From: Terriglobus albidus
GTDB taxonomy: Bacteria; Acidobacteriota; Terriglobia; Terriglobales; Acidobacteriaceae
Assembly (NCBI RefSeq): GCF_025685425.1
Contig: NZ_JAGTAS010000049.1
Location: forward strand, 62,001 to 126,000
Direction: 5' to 3'
Length of the DNA stretch: 64,000 bases
Below, one piece after another: positions 25,060 to 63,476 of this stretch. How positions within the stretch are numbered: the stretch's first letter is position 1; the number at the start of each line of letters is the position of its first letter. The notes beneath the pieces are model-generated. The model saw only the letters and a program-made list of their open reading frames with translations, was not told where the DNA came from and searched no databases. A program made the translations under genes and the position numbers.

Positions 25060-25262
25060 TCAACCGGTTCGCGCACGGCGCGAATGCCCACATCTGCTTG
25101 CACCCCAAACGAACGTAGTTCGTCGGGGACCCCGCGGCGTAGATATGGGGCACCCGGGATTGGGGACCGAAAAGTGGGTGGAAAAGCAGATTCTCCGCTC
25201 CCGTTGGTCGCTACGAAATGACAAACAGAAAAGGCAGTTCGCGCGCACCCGGGTCTTGGGCC
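25060..25262. repeat. Family D composite array
   Basis: Between mscS and mnmG: hairpin TTCGCGCACGGCGCGAA, CGAACGTAGTTCG, GGGGACCCCG, TGGGGCACCCGGG, then GAAAAGCAGATTCTCCGCTC and GGTCGCTACGAAATGACAAA. Same module order as elsewhere. No gene is seen in the whole 385 bp gap. Confidence 0.65.
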
Positions 25263-43657: not shown

Positions 43658-44016
43658 AGGTTGAAAGTTGCAAGTTGAAGGTTGAAGACGTACCGCGTGG
43701 GCGAGTGGAAGTTGGTGAGCTATCTAACGTTCGAAGGCGGCTGCAAAGCTCGCGGCACAGAAGCAGATTTCTCCGCTCTCTTCGGTCGATCCACCCCAAC
43801 CAGCAAGCTGGCCGGGGACCCCGGCCGCTGTGAAATGACAGACCGGAGATGATTGGCGGCTTGCGCTGGATAACCTTCCCCCTCTGCCCAGCGTTCTAAA
43901 CAATAGGCGGTAGCGCCATGTCTGACTTCGGGCCCCTCGATCCACGGTGCTCCATGGGATGCAGCAAAACATGCCCCACCCATGCCGCACGTCTTCAACT
44001 TTCAACTTTCAACTTC
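43658..44016. repeat. Family C inverted arms enclosing a family D module
   Basis: Left arm GTTGAAAGTTGCAAGTTGAA... ending GACGTACC (43658-43692), right arm GCACGTCTTCAACTTTCAAC... (43987-44016). Between them are AGCAGATTTCTCCGCTC, CCAACCAGCAAGCTGGCCGG, GGACCCCGGCC, GTGAAATGACAGACC. No gene is seen. This is the clearest example of the C-D-C composite. Confidence 0.75.
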
Positions 44017-46910: not shown

Positions 46911-47310
46911 GCAAGTTAAAAGTTAAAAGTTAAAGAGCTACTGTGTCGAGAGGGAGGGTAGTTGAAAGTTGAAGACGTACTGCATCGGTAGGGAAAGTGG
47001 AGCACCCCACATAACGCGAAGCTGGGTGACTATCGAGCGCAGCTCGATCCGTTCTGCGAATGACGAGAGACGTTCGCGCGGAGCGCGAATACCCAGGTCC
47101 CGTAGGACCCCGGGGCACCCACTGTTTGGGCTACTCATGCATCCCCGAGTACCGGTGCAGTACGTCTTCAACTTTCAACTTTTAACTTTCAACGACCGCC
47201 GCGGGCGCTCTTAAAGACGCTTCGCGCGGAGCGCGAATACCCAGTATTTGGGCTACTCATACATCTCGACTCACCACGATCGTACGTCTTCAACTTTTAA
47301 CTTTCAACGA
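46911..47310. repeat. Family C arms and D modules composite
   Basis: C arms at 46911-46984, 47161-47192 and 47283-47310 (units GTTAAAA/GTTGAAA with GACGTACT). D modules between: ATCGAGCGCAGCTCGAT, TTCGCGCGGAGCGCGAA, GGTCCCGTAGGACC, CGGGGCACCC and a second TTCGCGCGGAGCGCGAA. No gene in this 520 bp gap. Confidence 0.7.
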
Positions 47311-58102: not shown

Positions 58103-59009
58103 GGGCAGGCTGCAGCCCGGCAAAGGCATCGGCTTCGGCAGGCTCGTCGTCGTAGGCGTACGCCAGCTCCCAGGTGGAACGGTCTTTCATGAGCTGAGAG
58201 ACGAGGGCGGTATGCATGGCGTGCCCTGCTCGCTCGGCGACGACGCGGCCCTGAATCCGGCGGCCTGCCAGCGCGAGATCACCGATCAGGTCGAGGACCT
58301 TGTGGCGGACGAACTCGTCCGGAAAACGGAGAGGGCCGTTTTGGACACCGGTCCGGGTAAGGATGATGGCCGACTGCTCGGAGACGCCGCGGATGAGACC
58401 CATATCCCGAAGCTTGGCCTCGTCTTCCTTCCATCCGAAGGTGCGAGCGGGAGCGATGAGGTCGGTGTAGGCGCCGGTCTCAAGGTCGGCGAGAAAACGT
58501 TCCCGACCGATGGGATTAGGAAAGTCGATGAGGTAGTCGATCTGGTAGCCGGTGCCGGGGTAGACGCCAATGAACTTATCGCCTTCGCGGACCTCAACCT
58601 CTTTGAGGATGCGAATGTACTCCCGTTTGCGGCGCTGCTGTCGGCTACCGACGCGATCGAATTCCGTGACATACGGTCCGGCGGAGCCGTCGAGGATTGG
58701 GAGTTCGAGGTTGTCGATCTCGACGATGACGTTGTCGATACCGTAGCCAATAAAGGCAGAGAGCAGGTGCTCGGTCGTGGAGATGAGGACACCCTGACGC
58801 ATCAGGCTGGTGGCGTAGCTGACTTTAGCGATATTGCGGTTGTTGGCGGGAATCTCGAAGCCGTCCAGGTCGGTACGGCGAAACACAATGCCTGACCCTG
58901 CGGCAGCAGGGATGAGGCGCATGGTGACAGGAGCTCCGGAGTGAAGGCCGATACCGGAGAAGCTGATCTCCGAGGCGATGGTGCGTTCGTAATGGGGCTT
59001 ACCTGACAC
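58095..59009 (-). CDS. lpxC: UDP-3-O-acyl-N-acetylglucosamine deacetylase LpxC
   Basis: 304 residues from a GTG (VSGKPHYERTIASEI). LpxC is the zinc-dependent committed step of lipid A synthesis. Zinc ligands: His in STTEHLLSA, His and Asp in VRHKVLDLIGDLALAG; the catalytic His is in RAGHAMHTALVS. Fits a didermic outer membrane. It heads a reverse-strand run of folK, tgt, EAL and yajC-secDF and faces rsmG. Confidence 0.95.
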   Translation of the reverse strand: MSGKPHYERTIASEISFSGIGLHSGAPVTMRLIPAAAGSGIVFRRTDLDGFEIPANNRNIAKVSYATSLMRQGVLISTTEHLLSAFIGYGIDNVIVEIDNLELPILDGSAGPYVTEFDRVGSRQQRRKREYIRILKEVEVREGDKFIGVYPGTGYQIDYLIDFPNPIGRERFLADLETGAYTDLIAPARTFGWKEDEAKLRDMGLIRGVSEQSAIILTRTGVQNGPLRFPDEFVRHKVLDLIGDLALAGRRIQGRVVAERAGHAMHTALVSQLMKDRSTWELAYAYDDEPAEADAFAGLQPAHA

Positions 59010-59107
59010 TCGTTCCGATCACCGTCCCGCAAATGTGACGAGAGTCAGAGTAGCCCCGATTCAAACAAGTGTGGATGTGGCAAAAATGACACAGTTAATC
59101 GTTTGGC

Positions 59108-59116
59108 TTATCCACA
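59108..59116 (+). other. Perfect DnaA-box-like 9-mer
   Basis: TTATCCACA in the lpxC-rsmG gap; an imperfect TGTGGATGT lies at 59070-59078. A single box is not evidence for an origin by itself. Confidence 0.35.
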
Positions 59117-59155
59117 TTCCTGTGAGTCCGGCGGATCTTCCCTTCGCCGGTACTA

Positions 59156-59259
59156 GAGCATCCCTGCTGCTGGATCCCGATAGAGAGCGCAGCGGCGTTT
59201 TCATTACGGAAGCGCCAGGGATACGGAATCCCTACGCTAGACCTACGGGGAAAATGCTC
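59156..59259 (-). repeat. Family A MITE-like element, copy 3
   Basis: 104 bp, opposite orientation to copies 1 and 2. Ends GAGCATCCC and GGAAAATGCTC, flanked by TA on both sides (59154-59155 and 59260-59261). Internal GCGGCGTTTTCATTACG is shared with the others. It lies in the divergent lpxC-rsmG space. Confidence 0.7.
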
Positions 59260-59261
59260 TA

Positions 59262-59342
59262 GCCGTTATTGGGGAATAAGGGGAAGCCTCGGTGGCTTGC
59301 GCCGTTTTCCTTCAGAGAAAACGGGTTTTAGGAGAAATGCTC
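59262..59342 (-). repeat. Family A derivative, truncated copy 4
   Basis: Keeps the GCCGTTTTCC-TTCAG-GAAAACGG hairpin and the right terminus GGAGAAATGCTC followed by TA (59343-59344), but lacks a left terminus. Directly next to copy 3, so nesting or tandem insertion is possible. It ends 13 bp before rsmG. Confidence 0.5.
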
Positions 59343-59355
59343 TAGACTTCTGGCG

Positions 59356-59970
59356 ATGGCTACGCTTTCGCTGGAAACCCTGGAGTCCCTATTGCAACCG
59401 TACCTGCCCGCTGGCATTCCAGCCGGTGTCGTGGAGAAACTTTCGGCGTATCTGGAACTATTGCTGAAGTGGAATGCCAGGACGAACCTTACCGCTATCC
59501 GGCAACCGGAGGAGATGGTGCGCCGGCACTTTGGGGAGAGTCTCTTTGCCGGTGGGCTAGTACCGGAGGAAACAGGGACATTGCTCGACCTGGGATCGGG
59601 AGGTGGATTTCCCGGGATTCCGATCCAGATTCTACGGCCGGAGATAGCGGTGACCCTGGCGGAGTCTCAAGGGAAGAAGGCGGCCTTTCTACGGGAAGCG
59701 GTACGGACCCTGGGACTGAAGACTGAAGTCTGGGCAGACCGGGGAGAAAAATTGGCTGGCAGATTTGATGTGGTCGCGATGCGCGCTGTGGACAAGATGG
59801 GGGAGATGATCCCGGTGGCAGAAGCGCTCGTCGGTCCCGGAGGCCATCTCATGTTGCTGACCACCCGTATTCAGCTCGAAGTACTGAACAGAGCCGCGAC
59901 TACTGTGCAGCCTCTGCCGGGATCGCTGGACGGGGTAGTGGCTTTGTTCCACGTGGAACAGAATGGTTGA
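59356..59970 (+). CDS. rsmG: 16S rRNA (guanine-527 N7) methyltransferase RsmG
   Basis: 204 residues. RsmG (GidB) methylates G527 in 16S rRNA. Motifs: KWNARTNLTAIR, LLDLGSGGGFPGIPIQILRP (AdoMet-binding loop), TLAESQGKKAAFLREAV, VVAMRAVDKMGEM. The final codons (FHVEQNG) overlap a parS site, so parS has shaped the C-terminus of the protein. It precedes the parS cluster and parAB, a classic chromosome-partition arrangement. Confidence 0.96.
   Translation: MATLSLETLESLLQPYLPAGIPAGVVEKLSAYLELLLKWNARTNLTAIRQPEEMVRRHFGESLFAGGLVPEETGTLLDLGSGGGFPGIPIQILRPEIAVTLAESQGKKAAFLREAVRTLGLKTEVWADRGEKLAGRFDVVAMRAVDKMGEMIPVAEALVGPGGHLMLLTTRIQLEVLNRAATTVQPLPGSLDGVVALFHVEQNG
59945..59960. other. parS site 1 (inside rsmG 3-prime end)
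   Basis: Perfect 16 bp palindrome TGTTCCACGTGGAACA, the ParB-binding consensus of many bacteria. It encodes part of the RsmG C-terminus. Confidence 0.92.
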
Positions 59971-60001
59971 AAGTTGCAAGTTGAAGGTTGAAGACATACG
60001 G
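59968..60001. repeat. Family C arm (left) at the parS cluster
   Basis: GTTGAAAGTTGCAAGTTGAA... ending GAAGACATACGG; its complement arms lie at 60608-60644 and 60704-60740. Confidence 0.7.
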
Positions 60002-60042
60002 CATGGGTGAGATGGGAAGTCGCCTGCCCAGCGTTCGAGGCA

Positions 60043-60058
60043 TGTTCCACGTGGAACA
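60043..60058. other. parS site 2
   Basis: Perfect TGTTCCACGTGGAACA palindrome in the rsmG-parA gap. Confidence 0.92.
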
Positions 60059-60061
60059 TAG

Positions 60062-60540
60062 GTGGTGGGATGGTCGTATCTGGGTGCCCAGATCTTCGGG
60101 GTCCCCGACGAACTTAGTTCGTTGGGGTGAATTCCCGCCCCTGGGTCCTGGGTGTTCGAGCGCCAGCTCGAACCGTTGTTCTTCCGAACCTTTTGGGAAA
60201 CTTCTTCCGAGAAAGGGAAGAGAAGGAGATTTCTCCGCTACTCTTCACCCCAACTAGCGAGCTAACTGTGGACCCCGAGCGCTGCGAAATGACAAAACCT
60301 AAGCGATCCCGTTGACCGACCCGCCGGACAACCTCCCGGTAAAGCAGGTTCTCCACTCCGTTCAGAATGACAACATAGGAAGTCCGCGTTCCGCGCGTGA
60401 AATGGCCAATGATGTGGTTTCAGGCGATAAAGCGGTTCGAGCTTCGCTCGAATACCCAGGCCCCAGAAACGGGAATTTCACCCCAACGAACTAAGTTCAT
60501 CGGGGACCCCGAAGTCCGGGGCACCCTAATCCATGTATCC
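60062..60540. repeat. Family D modules between parS sites 2 and 3
   Basis: Several modules: GGTGCCCAGATCTTCGGGG, CCCGACGAACTTAGTTCGTTGGGG, AAGGAGATTTCTCCGCT, GCGCTGCGAAATGACAAAAC, then a second set TTCGAGCTTCGCTCGAATACC, CGGGGCACCC. No gene is evident from rsmG to parA (950 bp). Confidence 0.65.
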
Positions 60541-60546
60541 CGAAGC

Positions 60547-60562
60547 TGTTCCACGTGGAACA
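60547..60562. other. parS site 3
   Basis: Perfect TGTTCCACGTGGAACA; immediately followed by TGTTGAATTTC, which recurs as TGCTGAATTTC after site 4. Confidence 0.92.
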
Positions 60563-60607
60563 TGTTGAATTTCAGAACAAAGTAGGATTCCCCGACCAGC
60601 CCCTGCC

Positions 60608-60644
60608 GTACGTCTTCAACCTTCAACTTGCAACTTTCAACCTT
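60608..60644. repeat. Family C arm (right), first
   Basis: CGTACGTCTTCAACCTTCAA... complementary to the arm at 59968-60001. Confidence 0.65.
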
Positions 60645-60646
60645 CT

Positions 60647-60662
60647 TGTTCCACGTGGAACA
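60647..60662. other. parS site 4
   Basis: Perfect TGTTCCACGTGGAACA, followed by TGCTGAATTTC; site 3 and its flank look like a duplicate of this unit. Confidence 0.92.
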
Positions 60663-60703
60663 TGCTGAATTTCTGGGCAAGCACGATCCTCCCTCCCCAT
60701 GCC

Positions 60704-60740
60704 GTGCGTCTTCAACTTCAGCCTGCAACTTCAACCTTTT
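60704..60740. repeat. Family C arm (right), second
   Basis: GTGCGTCTTCAACTTCAGCC... a diverged C arm between parS sites 4 and 5. Confidence 0.55.
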
Positions 60741-60817
60741 TCACCTTCCTCTTCTTTCCCAGTGGAAAAGTCCTGAAATGCGTCCCGTAGAGTACTGGCG
60801 CGGGTTTTCGTGCGGGA

Positions 60818-60833
60818 GGTTCCACGTGGAACA
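60818..60833. other. parS site 5 (one mismatch)
   Basis: GGTTCCACGTGGAACA: identical core, first base G instead of T. It is about 87 bp before parA. Confidence 0.85.
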
Positions 60834-60919
60834 ACACTTTTCCACCTTCGTTCCACAGGTATCCGAGACCTGCATATTGAACCTCGTATCACCGCTCCCG
60901 TAGGCTCAATTCTGTTCCC

Positions 60920-61762
60920 ATGAGCAAGGTTCTCGCCATAGTGAATCAGAAGGGCGGCGTCGGTAAGACGACGACTGCCATCAACCTCTCTGCCGCAATC
61001 GCCCTTGAAGGTCTGGATACCCTGCTGATTGATATCGATCCCCAGGCGAACTCCACTGGCGGCCTCGGCTTCGGCCGGGATGACGAGCGCGCATCCACCT
61101 ATGATGTGCTGATGACCGCTGTCACGCCGGATGCAGCCATGCTCACGACGGAGATCGGCACCTTGAAACTCGTCCCGTCGAGCAAGAACCTGATCGGCGC
61201 GACCATCGAGCTTATTCAGCAGGATCGCCGCGAGTTCCGTCTGCGGGATGCCTTAGCCCCGCTGCGGGAGCGTTTTCCCTTTATCCTGCTGGACTGCCCT
61301 CCAGCCCTCGATCTGCTGACCCTGAACGCCCTAGTTGCCTCTGATGGCCTGCTGGTCCCGATGCAGGCCGAGTACTTCGCCCTGGAGGGCATCAGCGAGC
61401 TCATGAGCACGCTGGATCGTGTCTCCCAGGCCTTCAATCCCGGCCTGGCTCTGGAAGGCGTTCTGATGACCATGTATGACGAGCGCACCAATCTGGCGCA
61501 GCAGGTCACGGCGAATCTGCAGGAGTTCTTCGGGGACAAGCTGTTGAAGACCACCATTCCCCGCAATGTACGTCTGGCAGAAGCTCCCAGTCATGGAAAG
61601 CCGGTCATGGTCTACGATCCGCGGTCGCGGGGATCGGACGCCTATCGCGACCTGGCGCTCGAGTTGCTGAAGCGCAACAAGATCGAAAGCCCGAAAGCGA
61701 AAGAACGCGCCAGGGCAGCGAAGACGGGGCAGGAGTTCAAATTCTGGCCCTATAACAAGTAA
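60920..61762 (+). CDS. parA: Chromosome partition ATPase ParA (Soj)
   Basis: 280 residues. ParA-type ATPase; it binds DNA nonspecifically as an ATP dimer and moves ParB-parS complexes. Deviant Walker A KGGVGKTTTAINLS (~11-24), Walker A-prime DIDPQANSTGG, Walker B ILLDCPPALDLLT. No N-terminal HTH, as expected for chromosomal Soj. Forms an operon with parB (81 bp downstream). Confidence 0.97.
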   Translation: MSKVLAIVNQKGGVGKTTTAINLSAAIALEGLDTLLIDIDPQANSTGGLGFGRDDERASTYDVLMTAVTPDAAMLTTEIGTLKLVPSSKNLIGATIELIQQDRREFRLRDALAPLRERFPFILLDCPPALDLLTLNALVASDGLLVPMQAEYFALEGISELMSTLDRVSQAFNPGLALEGVLMTMYDERTNLAQQVTANLQEFFGDKLLKTTIPRNVRLAEAPSHGKPVMVYDPRSRGSDAYRDLALELLKRNKIESPKAKERARAAKTGQEFKFWPYNK

Positions 61763-61842: not shown

Positions 61843-62757
61843 ATGAGCACTGGAGCCAAACGCGCCGCACTGGGGAAAGGTCTGGAAGCGCTGCTTCCCT
61901 CCAAAAAGCCGGCCGCTGAACCCGTCGCCCCACCGCCCGCCGCAGCCGCCCCTGTCACCGTCATCGAGGGCAAACCGAAAGAGATCCCCGTCGAGGCGAT
62001 CGAGCGCAACCCCTATCAGACGCGCACCCGGTTCGATGAGACGGCGCTGGCAGAACTGAGTGCGTCGATCGCGGAGCTCGGTGTGGCGCAGCCGATCCTG
62101 GTGCGTCCGCTGCCGGGCGGCAAGTTCCAGCTCATCGCCGGCGAGCGCCGCTGGCTGGCTTCGCAACGCGCAGGTAAGACGACCGTTCCCGCCATCATCA
62201 AAGAGGTCTCGAACGAGCAGGCGATGGAGATCACCATCGTTGAGAACCTGCAGCGCGCCGACCTGAACCCAATGGAGCAGGCCAAGGCCTATCAAAGGCT
62301 CTCAAGCGAGTTCGGCCTTACCCAGGAACAGATGGCCAAGCGCACCGGCAAAGATCGCGCCAGTGTCGCTAACTTCCTTCGGTTGTTGAAGTTACCGGAA
62401 TCGGTCCAGGCCCGTGTGGAAGTGGGAGAGATCAGCTTTGGGCATGCACGTTCGCTGCTGGCCCTTGAAGACGTGCAACTCATTGAAAAGGCTGCACTTA
62501 AGGTTGTACAAATGGGCATGTCCGTCCGCGCGACTGAGACGTTTGTACAAAACCAGCTCAACCCGGAGCGGAAGCTGGGCAAGGTCGAGGCGGTGGAAGA
62601 TCCGCCGATGGACCCCAACGTAAAAGAAGCCCAGACGAAACTGCAGAGGACGCTTGGGTTGAAGGTGCGGATCGAGGATAAGAACGGCAAGGGCAAAGTC
62701 GTCATAGAGTACGCCAATGTCGATGACTTCGATCGCCTGCTTGAGGCGCTGGCATGA
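61843..62757 (+). CDS. parB: Chromosome partition protein ParB (Spo0J)
   Basis: 304 residues; a CTP-dependent clamp loading at parS. N-terminal ParB/Srx domain: IERNPYQTRTRFDETALAEL, PGGKFQLIAGERRWLASQRA (GERRW CTP-binding motif), NEQAMEITIVENLQRADLNP; then an HTH (LTQEQMAKRTGKDRASVANF; LLKLPESVQARVEVGEISFG). C-terminal dimerisation domain ends FDRLLEALA. Encoded next to five parS sites. Its stop overlaps the next gene (ATGA). Confidence 0.96.
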   Translation: MSTGAKRAALGKGLEALLPSKKPAAEPVAPPPAAAAPVTVIEGKPKEIPVEAIERNPYQTRTRFDETALAELSASIAELGVAQPILVRPLPGGKFQLIAGERRWLASQRAGKTTVPAIIKEVSNEQAMEITIVENLQRADLNPMEQAKAYQRLSSEFGLTQEQMAKRTGKDRASVANFLRLLKLPESVQARVEVGEISFGHARSLLALEDVQLIEKAALKVVQMGMSVRATETFVQNQLNPERKLGKVEAVEDPPMDPNVKEAQTKLQRTLGLKVRIEDKNGKGKVVIEYANVDDFDRLLEALA

Positions 62758-63476
62758 AGTGGCTGCGCGCGACCGCGCTTGAGTATCGTCTGCGGTATCT
62801 GATTCACGCTGTCATCTTCATCGTTGGATTTACCGCACCGTGGAACAAGGGCTGGATGAATGTCGGCCGCCAGTCGGTATGGGTCGAGCTCTCCGGCGGC
62901 ATGATGAAAGGCGCCGGACTCGGCTTCGCCGCGGCGACCGAGACAGTGCTGGTGCTGGCTGCTCTGCTGGCCTGCGCGGGAGCCTGGCTGCGAATCTGGG
63001 CTGCGGCCTACATCGGCACCGGAATCGTCCAGGACGCCAGCATGCGCGGCGAACGTGTCCTCGCAGATGGCCCGTATCGCTATACACGCAATCCGCTTTA
63101 CCTGGGCACCATTCTGCACACCCTGGGAATTGCCATCCTGATGCAGCCGCTGGCAGCATTGCTGGCCGTGGTGTTGATTACAGCGTTCCAGTTCCGCCTG
63201 ATTCTGCGGGAAGAACTGTTCCTCGAAGAACAGCGTGGCCCCGCGTATCTGAACTATAAGGCAGCCGTGCCCCGGCTGTTTCCTAGTCTTCAGCCGCGGG
63301 TTCCCGCAGGCGGAGCGAAGCCTGCGTGGGGACAGGCGATTCTGGGTGAGATTTATTTCCTTGGGGTTGCGGCTAGTTTTCTTCTGCTGGGCTGGCAATG
63401 GGACGCGTGGCTGATTCTGCGCGGCATCCTCATCTCTTGGGGTGCGGCGTTGGTGGCGCGGGCGTTCACGAATTAG
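62754..63476 (+). CDS. Membrane methyltransferase of the PEMT/ICMT type
   Basis: 240 residues with about five hydrophobic segments (IHAVIFIVGFTAPW, ETVLVLAALLACAGAWLRIW, LGIAILMQPLAALLAVVLIT, IYFLGVAASFLLLGW, ILRGILISWGAALVARAFT). The segment GPYRYTRNPLYLGTILHTLG is the hallmark of isoprenylcysteine carboxyl- and phospholipid-N-methyltransferases, followed by REELFLEEQRGPAYLNY. It likely methylates a lipid or membrane protein. Its start overlaps the parB stop, so it is in the par operon. Confidence 0.88.
   Translation: MKWLRATALEYRLRYLIHAVIFIVGFTAPWNKGWMNVGRQSVWVELSGGMMKGAGLGFAAATETVLVLAALLACAGAWLRIWAAAYIGTGIVQDASMRGERVLADGPYRYTRNPLYLGTILHTLGIAILMQPLAALLAVVLITAFQFRLILREELFLEEQRGPAYLNYKAAVPRLFPSLQPRVPAGGAKPAWGQAILGEIYFLGVAASFLLLGWQWDAWLILRGILISWGAALVARAFTN

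Follow-up and report, generated by a model that had tools for sequence, protein, structure and literature searches.

A five-site parS cluster between rsmG and parA of Terriglobus albidus, read as an origin-proximal chromosomal centromere

As a rule, parS sites cluster near the origin (PMC8357415, PMC5815017, PMC7022226). ParB loads at them, closes on the DNA with CTP and slides outward, and the complex formed in this way loads SMC and is segregated through ParA (PMC7053999, PMC5815017, PMC8357415). The window analysed here, a stretch of 64,000 nucleotides from Terriglobus albidus, holds several copies of a parS-like palindrome between rsmG and parA, interleaved with dispersed repeats and extending into a coding sequence. 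This raises the question of whether these copies mark a centromere, or whether they owe their presence to the repeats, to gene regulation or to the encoded protein. Our answer is that the cluster is very probably the origin-proximal chromosomal centromere of a ParABS system, where ParB loads. The features on which this reading draws are the following, parS sites being given without strand.

59356..59970, + strand: rsmG (gidB), 16S rRNA G527 methyltransferase; open reading frame, TIGR00138 at 123.8 bits (cut-off 99.5)
59945..59960: parS1, exact TGTTCCACGTGGAACA, in frame within rsmG (FHVEQ), with codons identical in 5 related genomes
59961..60007, + strand: copy of dispersed repeat C (GGTTGAAAGTTGCAAGTTGAAGGTTGAAG...GGCATGGG), pairing with 60600-60646; at least 23 matches in the genome
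60043..60058: parS2, exact TGTTCCACGTGGAACA
60067..60136, + strand: copy of dispersed repeat D (GGGGTCCCCGACGAACTTAGTTCGTTGGGGTGAA...), pairing with 60472-60541; at least 40 matches in the genome
60472..60541, - strand: inverted copy of repeat D, pairing with 60067-60136
60547..60562: parS3, exact TGTTCCACGTGGAACA; probably a lineage-specific copy that arose when a ~100 bp unit was duplicated
60600..60646, - strand: inverted copy of repeat C, pairing with 59961-60007
60647..60662: parS4, exact TGTTCCACGTGGAACA, 273 bp before parA
60818..60833: parS5, GGTTCCACGTGGAACA, with a single mismatch at an outer base, 102 bp before parA
60920..61762, + strand: parA, Soj-type partition ATPase; open reading frame with the deviant Walker A motif KGGVGKTT
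61843..62757, + strand: parB, Spo0J-type CTPase clamp; TIGR00180 at 184.6 bits (cut-off 58.45)

The initial annotation, made from the letters of the window, had described four perfect palindromes and one with a single mismatch within 890 bp upstream of parAB, and had noticed none elsewhere in the window. All five positions were recovered as described, as four exact copies and one one-mismatch copy of the 16 bp parS consensus TGTTCCACGTGGAACA, and the only further match in the window at up to three mismatches, at 63217, carries three. Shuffled sequence searched at the same threshold gave a mean of 0.21 matches, and none of 100 shuffles reached six. The annotation had also proposed a genome-wide search for the 16-mer with up to two mismatches, which we carried out on all 58 contigs of the assembly (6,104,258 bp, completeness rating 100%), and the outcome agrees with clustering here and scarcity elsewhere: outside the cluster the search added only C28:878830, with one mismatch, and C53:120671, with two, which equals the two matches of a reversed-pattern control. 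From base composition, ~0.001 exact copies of TGTTCCACGTGGAACA would be expected per 6.1 Mb. The match at C28:878830 encodes the peptide LFHLEQEG in an open reading frame that we read as glucose-6-phosphate dehydrogenase, and it recurs in two relatives (G001 and G010), so that it is constrained as coding sequence and the protein explains it; it was therefore rejected as a sixth parS. A credible parS occurs nowhere else in the assembly, a 58-contig draft in which contig gaps could conceal distant sites.

The sites stand beside the genes for a cognate ParA and ParB, in the order rsmG, parS zone, parA and parB on the + strand, and dnaA, by which we gauged nearness to the origin, lies on the same contig ~41 kb from the cluster. 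Residues 47-244 of ParB match solved ParB/Spo0J structures (E 3.6e-54), and the protein retains the GERR box and the ENLQR motif. The match of ParA to the ParA_partition family falls below the family cut-off, and the protein is 98-99% identical to the parS-adjacent ParA of three relatives (G001, G008 and G010). Judged by its sequence, ParB is a canonical chromosomal ParB, and the neighbouring RsmG and ParA are likewise canonical. No RNA family matched in an Rfam scan of 59000-61000.

The arrangement recurs at the same locus in related organisms. A parS lies just upstream of parA in all 19 searched genomes of the same GTDB genus, including Terriglobus roseus, at parA identities of 65-99%, and some of these genomes carry extra sites between parA and parB, after parB, ~1.4 kb upstream of rsmG or inside rsmG. 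The four nearest relatives (G001, G008, G010 and G018) each have 4-5 sites at the locus. Of the five close genomes, 5/5 have both the site read in frame within rsmG and one at -101 or -102 from parA; 4/5 have the site at -273 to -276, which G001, G008 and G010 carry at -274 to -276. The spacers among these genomes are riddled with indels while the sites are kept; in an approximate five-genome alignment, 39/48 gapless columns within parS are invariant, against 128/284 outside. At family level, with up to one mismatch allowed, the motif was found in 179/200 genomes, at a median of 3 per genome. Of the 69 family loci in which rsmG lies upstream of parA, 42 show two sites within the inspected zone, the others between one and seven, and a site overlaps rsmG in six. 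The phylum survey, which counted exact copies only, found TGTTCCACGTGGAACA in 119/297 genomes. Taken across these genomes, the arrangement is conserved through genus and family at the same locus.

A few genomes carry sites away from parAB. One genus member (G009; L088-L092, also L077) has five extra exact parS on five non-parAB contigs, several of them apparently intergenic. Another (G006; L093-L099) has seven scattered single-mismatch sites, altered at the outer base only (CGTTCCACGTGGAACA or its complement, and one GGTTCCACGTGGAACA), each lying where one or more frames are open; scattered sites are all but absent from most genus relatives. In the family, G363, G414 and G429 have 23-40 parS-like sites each, and most of those listed for G414 read TGTTCCACGTGGAGCA, a variant that may represent a separate element.

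The initial annotation had further stated that the first site codes for the C-terminus of RsmG and that the cluster is woven into dispersed repeats, and both points hold. The site parS1 sits in the final codons of rsmG (..ALFHVEQNG), in frame and encoding FHVEQ, and the interweaving with repeats C and D is borne out by their pairings at the locus and by their genome-wide copies. Sites 1-4 form an imperfect nested inverted repeat (parS1-C-parS2-D ... D'-parS3-C'-parS4) with arms at ~59945-60175 and ~60433-60662. A direct repeat is superimposed on it, in which 60547-60647, led by parS3, aligns with 60647-60747, led by parS4; relatives carry this ~100 bp parS unit once, in a gappy alignment. The third site and its spacer would thus probably be an extra copy from local duplication of the unit, and with the unit directly repeated here and single in relatives, local duplication seems to be how the number of sites changes. 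We also considered a decayed middle parS near 60380 (in relatives a site falls at ~-427 to -480) and dropped it, the alignment being too poor. Repeat C consists of short, tandem-like GTTGAAG units and also occurs at 43659-44015 and 47160-47193 of the window, and repeat D is a palindrome, ACGAACTTAGTTCGT, with a further window copy at 25108-25134.

Such interleaving could mean that C and D, as a repeat family in which the palindrome happens to occur, brought the 16-mers along, and that there is no centromere at all. The alternation of sites with repeat copies and the repetition of the parS-bearing unit speak for this explanation, which we nevertheless regard as highly improbable, as C and D copies elsewhere in the genome have no parS alongside, relatives retain sites where the spacers differ, and in many genomes the sites occupy short spacers of ~100-350 bp. 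The idea of parS as cargo of either repeat was rejected on the first of these grounds. For the same reason the repeats are not carriers of the sites but occupants of the gaps between them, the spacers being neutral ground that dispersed repeats have colonised. We found nothing to suggest a role for C or D in ParB loading, their copies elsewhere in the genome lacking parS. A comparable question concerns the first site, which would be a coding accident if the FHVEQ tail were conserved as protein. The FHVE peptide is indeed the same in five genomes, but so are its codons: those for F, H, V and E are identical in 4/4 cases, against 24/123 for other conserved-residue codons. The tail moreover falls outside the stretch matched by the RsmG family profile, and the overlap of rsmG with parS gives VPRGT, from another frame, in G011, L148 and L209, and FHVE in G017 and L160, a difference among lineages which implies that the DNA and not the peptide is what is conserved. 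A selected peptide was rejected on the codon test and these other frames, and we give that explanation almost no credence; what selection appears to favour at the first site is the DNA, and FHVEQ would be a by-product. The site would extend into rsmG because the end of the gene has run into the parS zone. There is precedent for a parS within rsmG, as in Thermus thermophilus the only chromosomal parS, to which ParB binding was demonstrated by EMSA, lies within gidB just upstream of parA (PMC4409726). One of the relatives (G018; L086, ~3086) has an exact parS in mid-rsmG, at codon ~67, in addition to the one at the gene end.

The sites might instead be mainly regulatory, with ParB or another factor autoregulating parAB or rsmG rather than marking a centromere. 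The site at about -102 before parA is kept in every one of the five close genomes, and ParB can alter transcription near parS in some species (PMC7022226), both of which speak for this alternative. A promoter scan of 59900-60950 found no sigma-70-like promoter, a weak argument to the contrary as it covered the sigma-70 type alone. Family-wide, site number and position vary freely while presence is conserved, as expected for loading sites, and a regulatory side effect would be compatible with a centromere role; we judge a mainly regulatory function improbable. The reading as a centromere is carried by what we observed of site sequence, number, genome uniqueness, position, conservation and neighbours. 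Weighing against it are the outer-base mismatch of one site, a substitution in the CTP patch of ParB (see below) and the chance that the draft conceals distant sites.

How the centromere would work follows from established ParB biology, from which we infer ParB binding, sliding, ParA transport and SMC loading, and the initial annotation's phrase "dense ParB loading zone" would have the same source. ParB dimers would recognise each 16 bp parS, and the bound ParB would close into a CTP-dependent clamp and then slide off onto flanking DNA. The accumulated ParB would form a partition complex, which would be moved by ParA and would assist SMC loading. With several sites within 890 bp, more ParB may load, and the centromere may tolerate the loss of any one of them.

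One feature of ParB departs from the usual motif. Its box C reads GERRWLA, in which the first two arginines of the CTP patch are intact and Leu replaces the third Arg of GERRxR. Among 76 related loci with a readable motif, the third patch position is Leu in 55 (GERRWLA, GERRLLA or GERRVLA) and Arg in 19. With Leu in the patch, CTP handling could differ. It is conceivable, though in our estimation quite unlikely, that GERRxL weakens ParB retention or spreading in many Acidobacteriaceae and that dense local parS arrays compensate; if so, the five-site zone would reflect an altered ParB clamp cycle. Within the genus, G006, G009 and G011 have GERRWR together with extra scattered sites. An association of GERRWL ParB with clustered rather than scattered sites was dropped, as the many-site family genomes G318, G062, G073 and G414 also have Leu.

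The parS sites of Pseudomonas aeruginosa are packed less tightly than the cluster described here. That species has four ParB-recognised parS near oriC, with a matching half-site GTTCCAC (PMC10419367, PMC7022226). Caulobacter crescentus resembles the present locus in having at least five strong parS clustered in ~5 kb near the origin, from which ParB spreads (PMC5815017), whereas here a stretch of 0.9 kb immediately between rsmG and parA holds all five sites, with dispersed repeats separating them. Closest in placement is parABc/parSc of Thermus thermophilus HB27, with parS in gidB (rsmG) right before parA and near oriC (PMC4409726); there the site is single, and here it is one of five that lies within rsmG. 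A full-text search combining Acidobacteria, parS sites and ParB found no paper in the literature collection searched. Clustering, origin proximity and the overlap with rsmG are all already known, and as both clustering and parS within rsmG/gidB have been published before, the finding is less surprising. The locus is a well-formed, ordinary ParABS centromere in Acidobacteriaceae and leaves the known picture of ParABS unchanged. Its value is that the cluster, on this very probable reading, maps the centromere of an acidobacterium, and that the locus shows parS persisting as the intervening DNA is remodelled by dispersed repeats.
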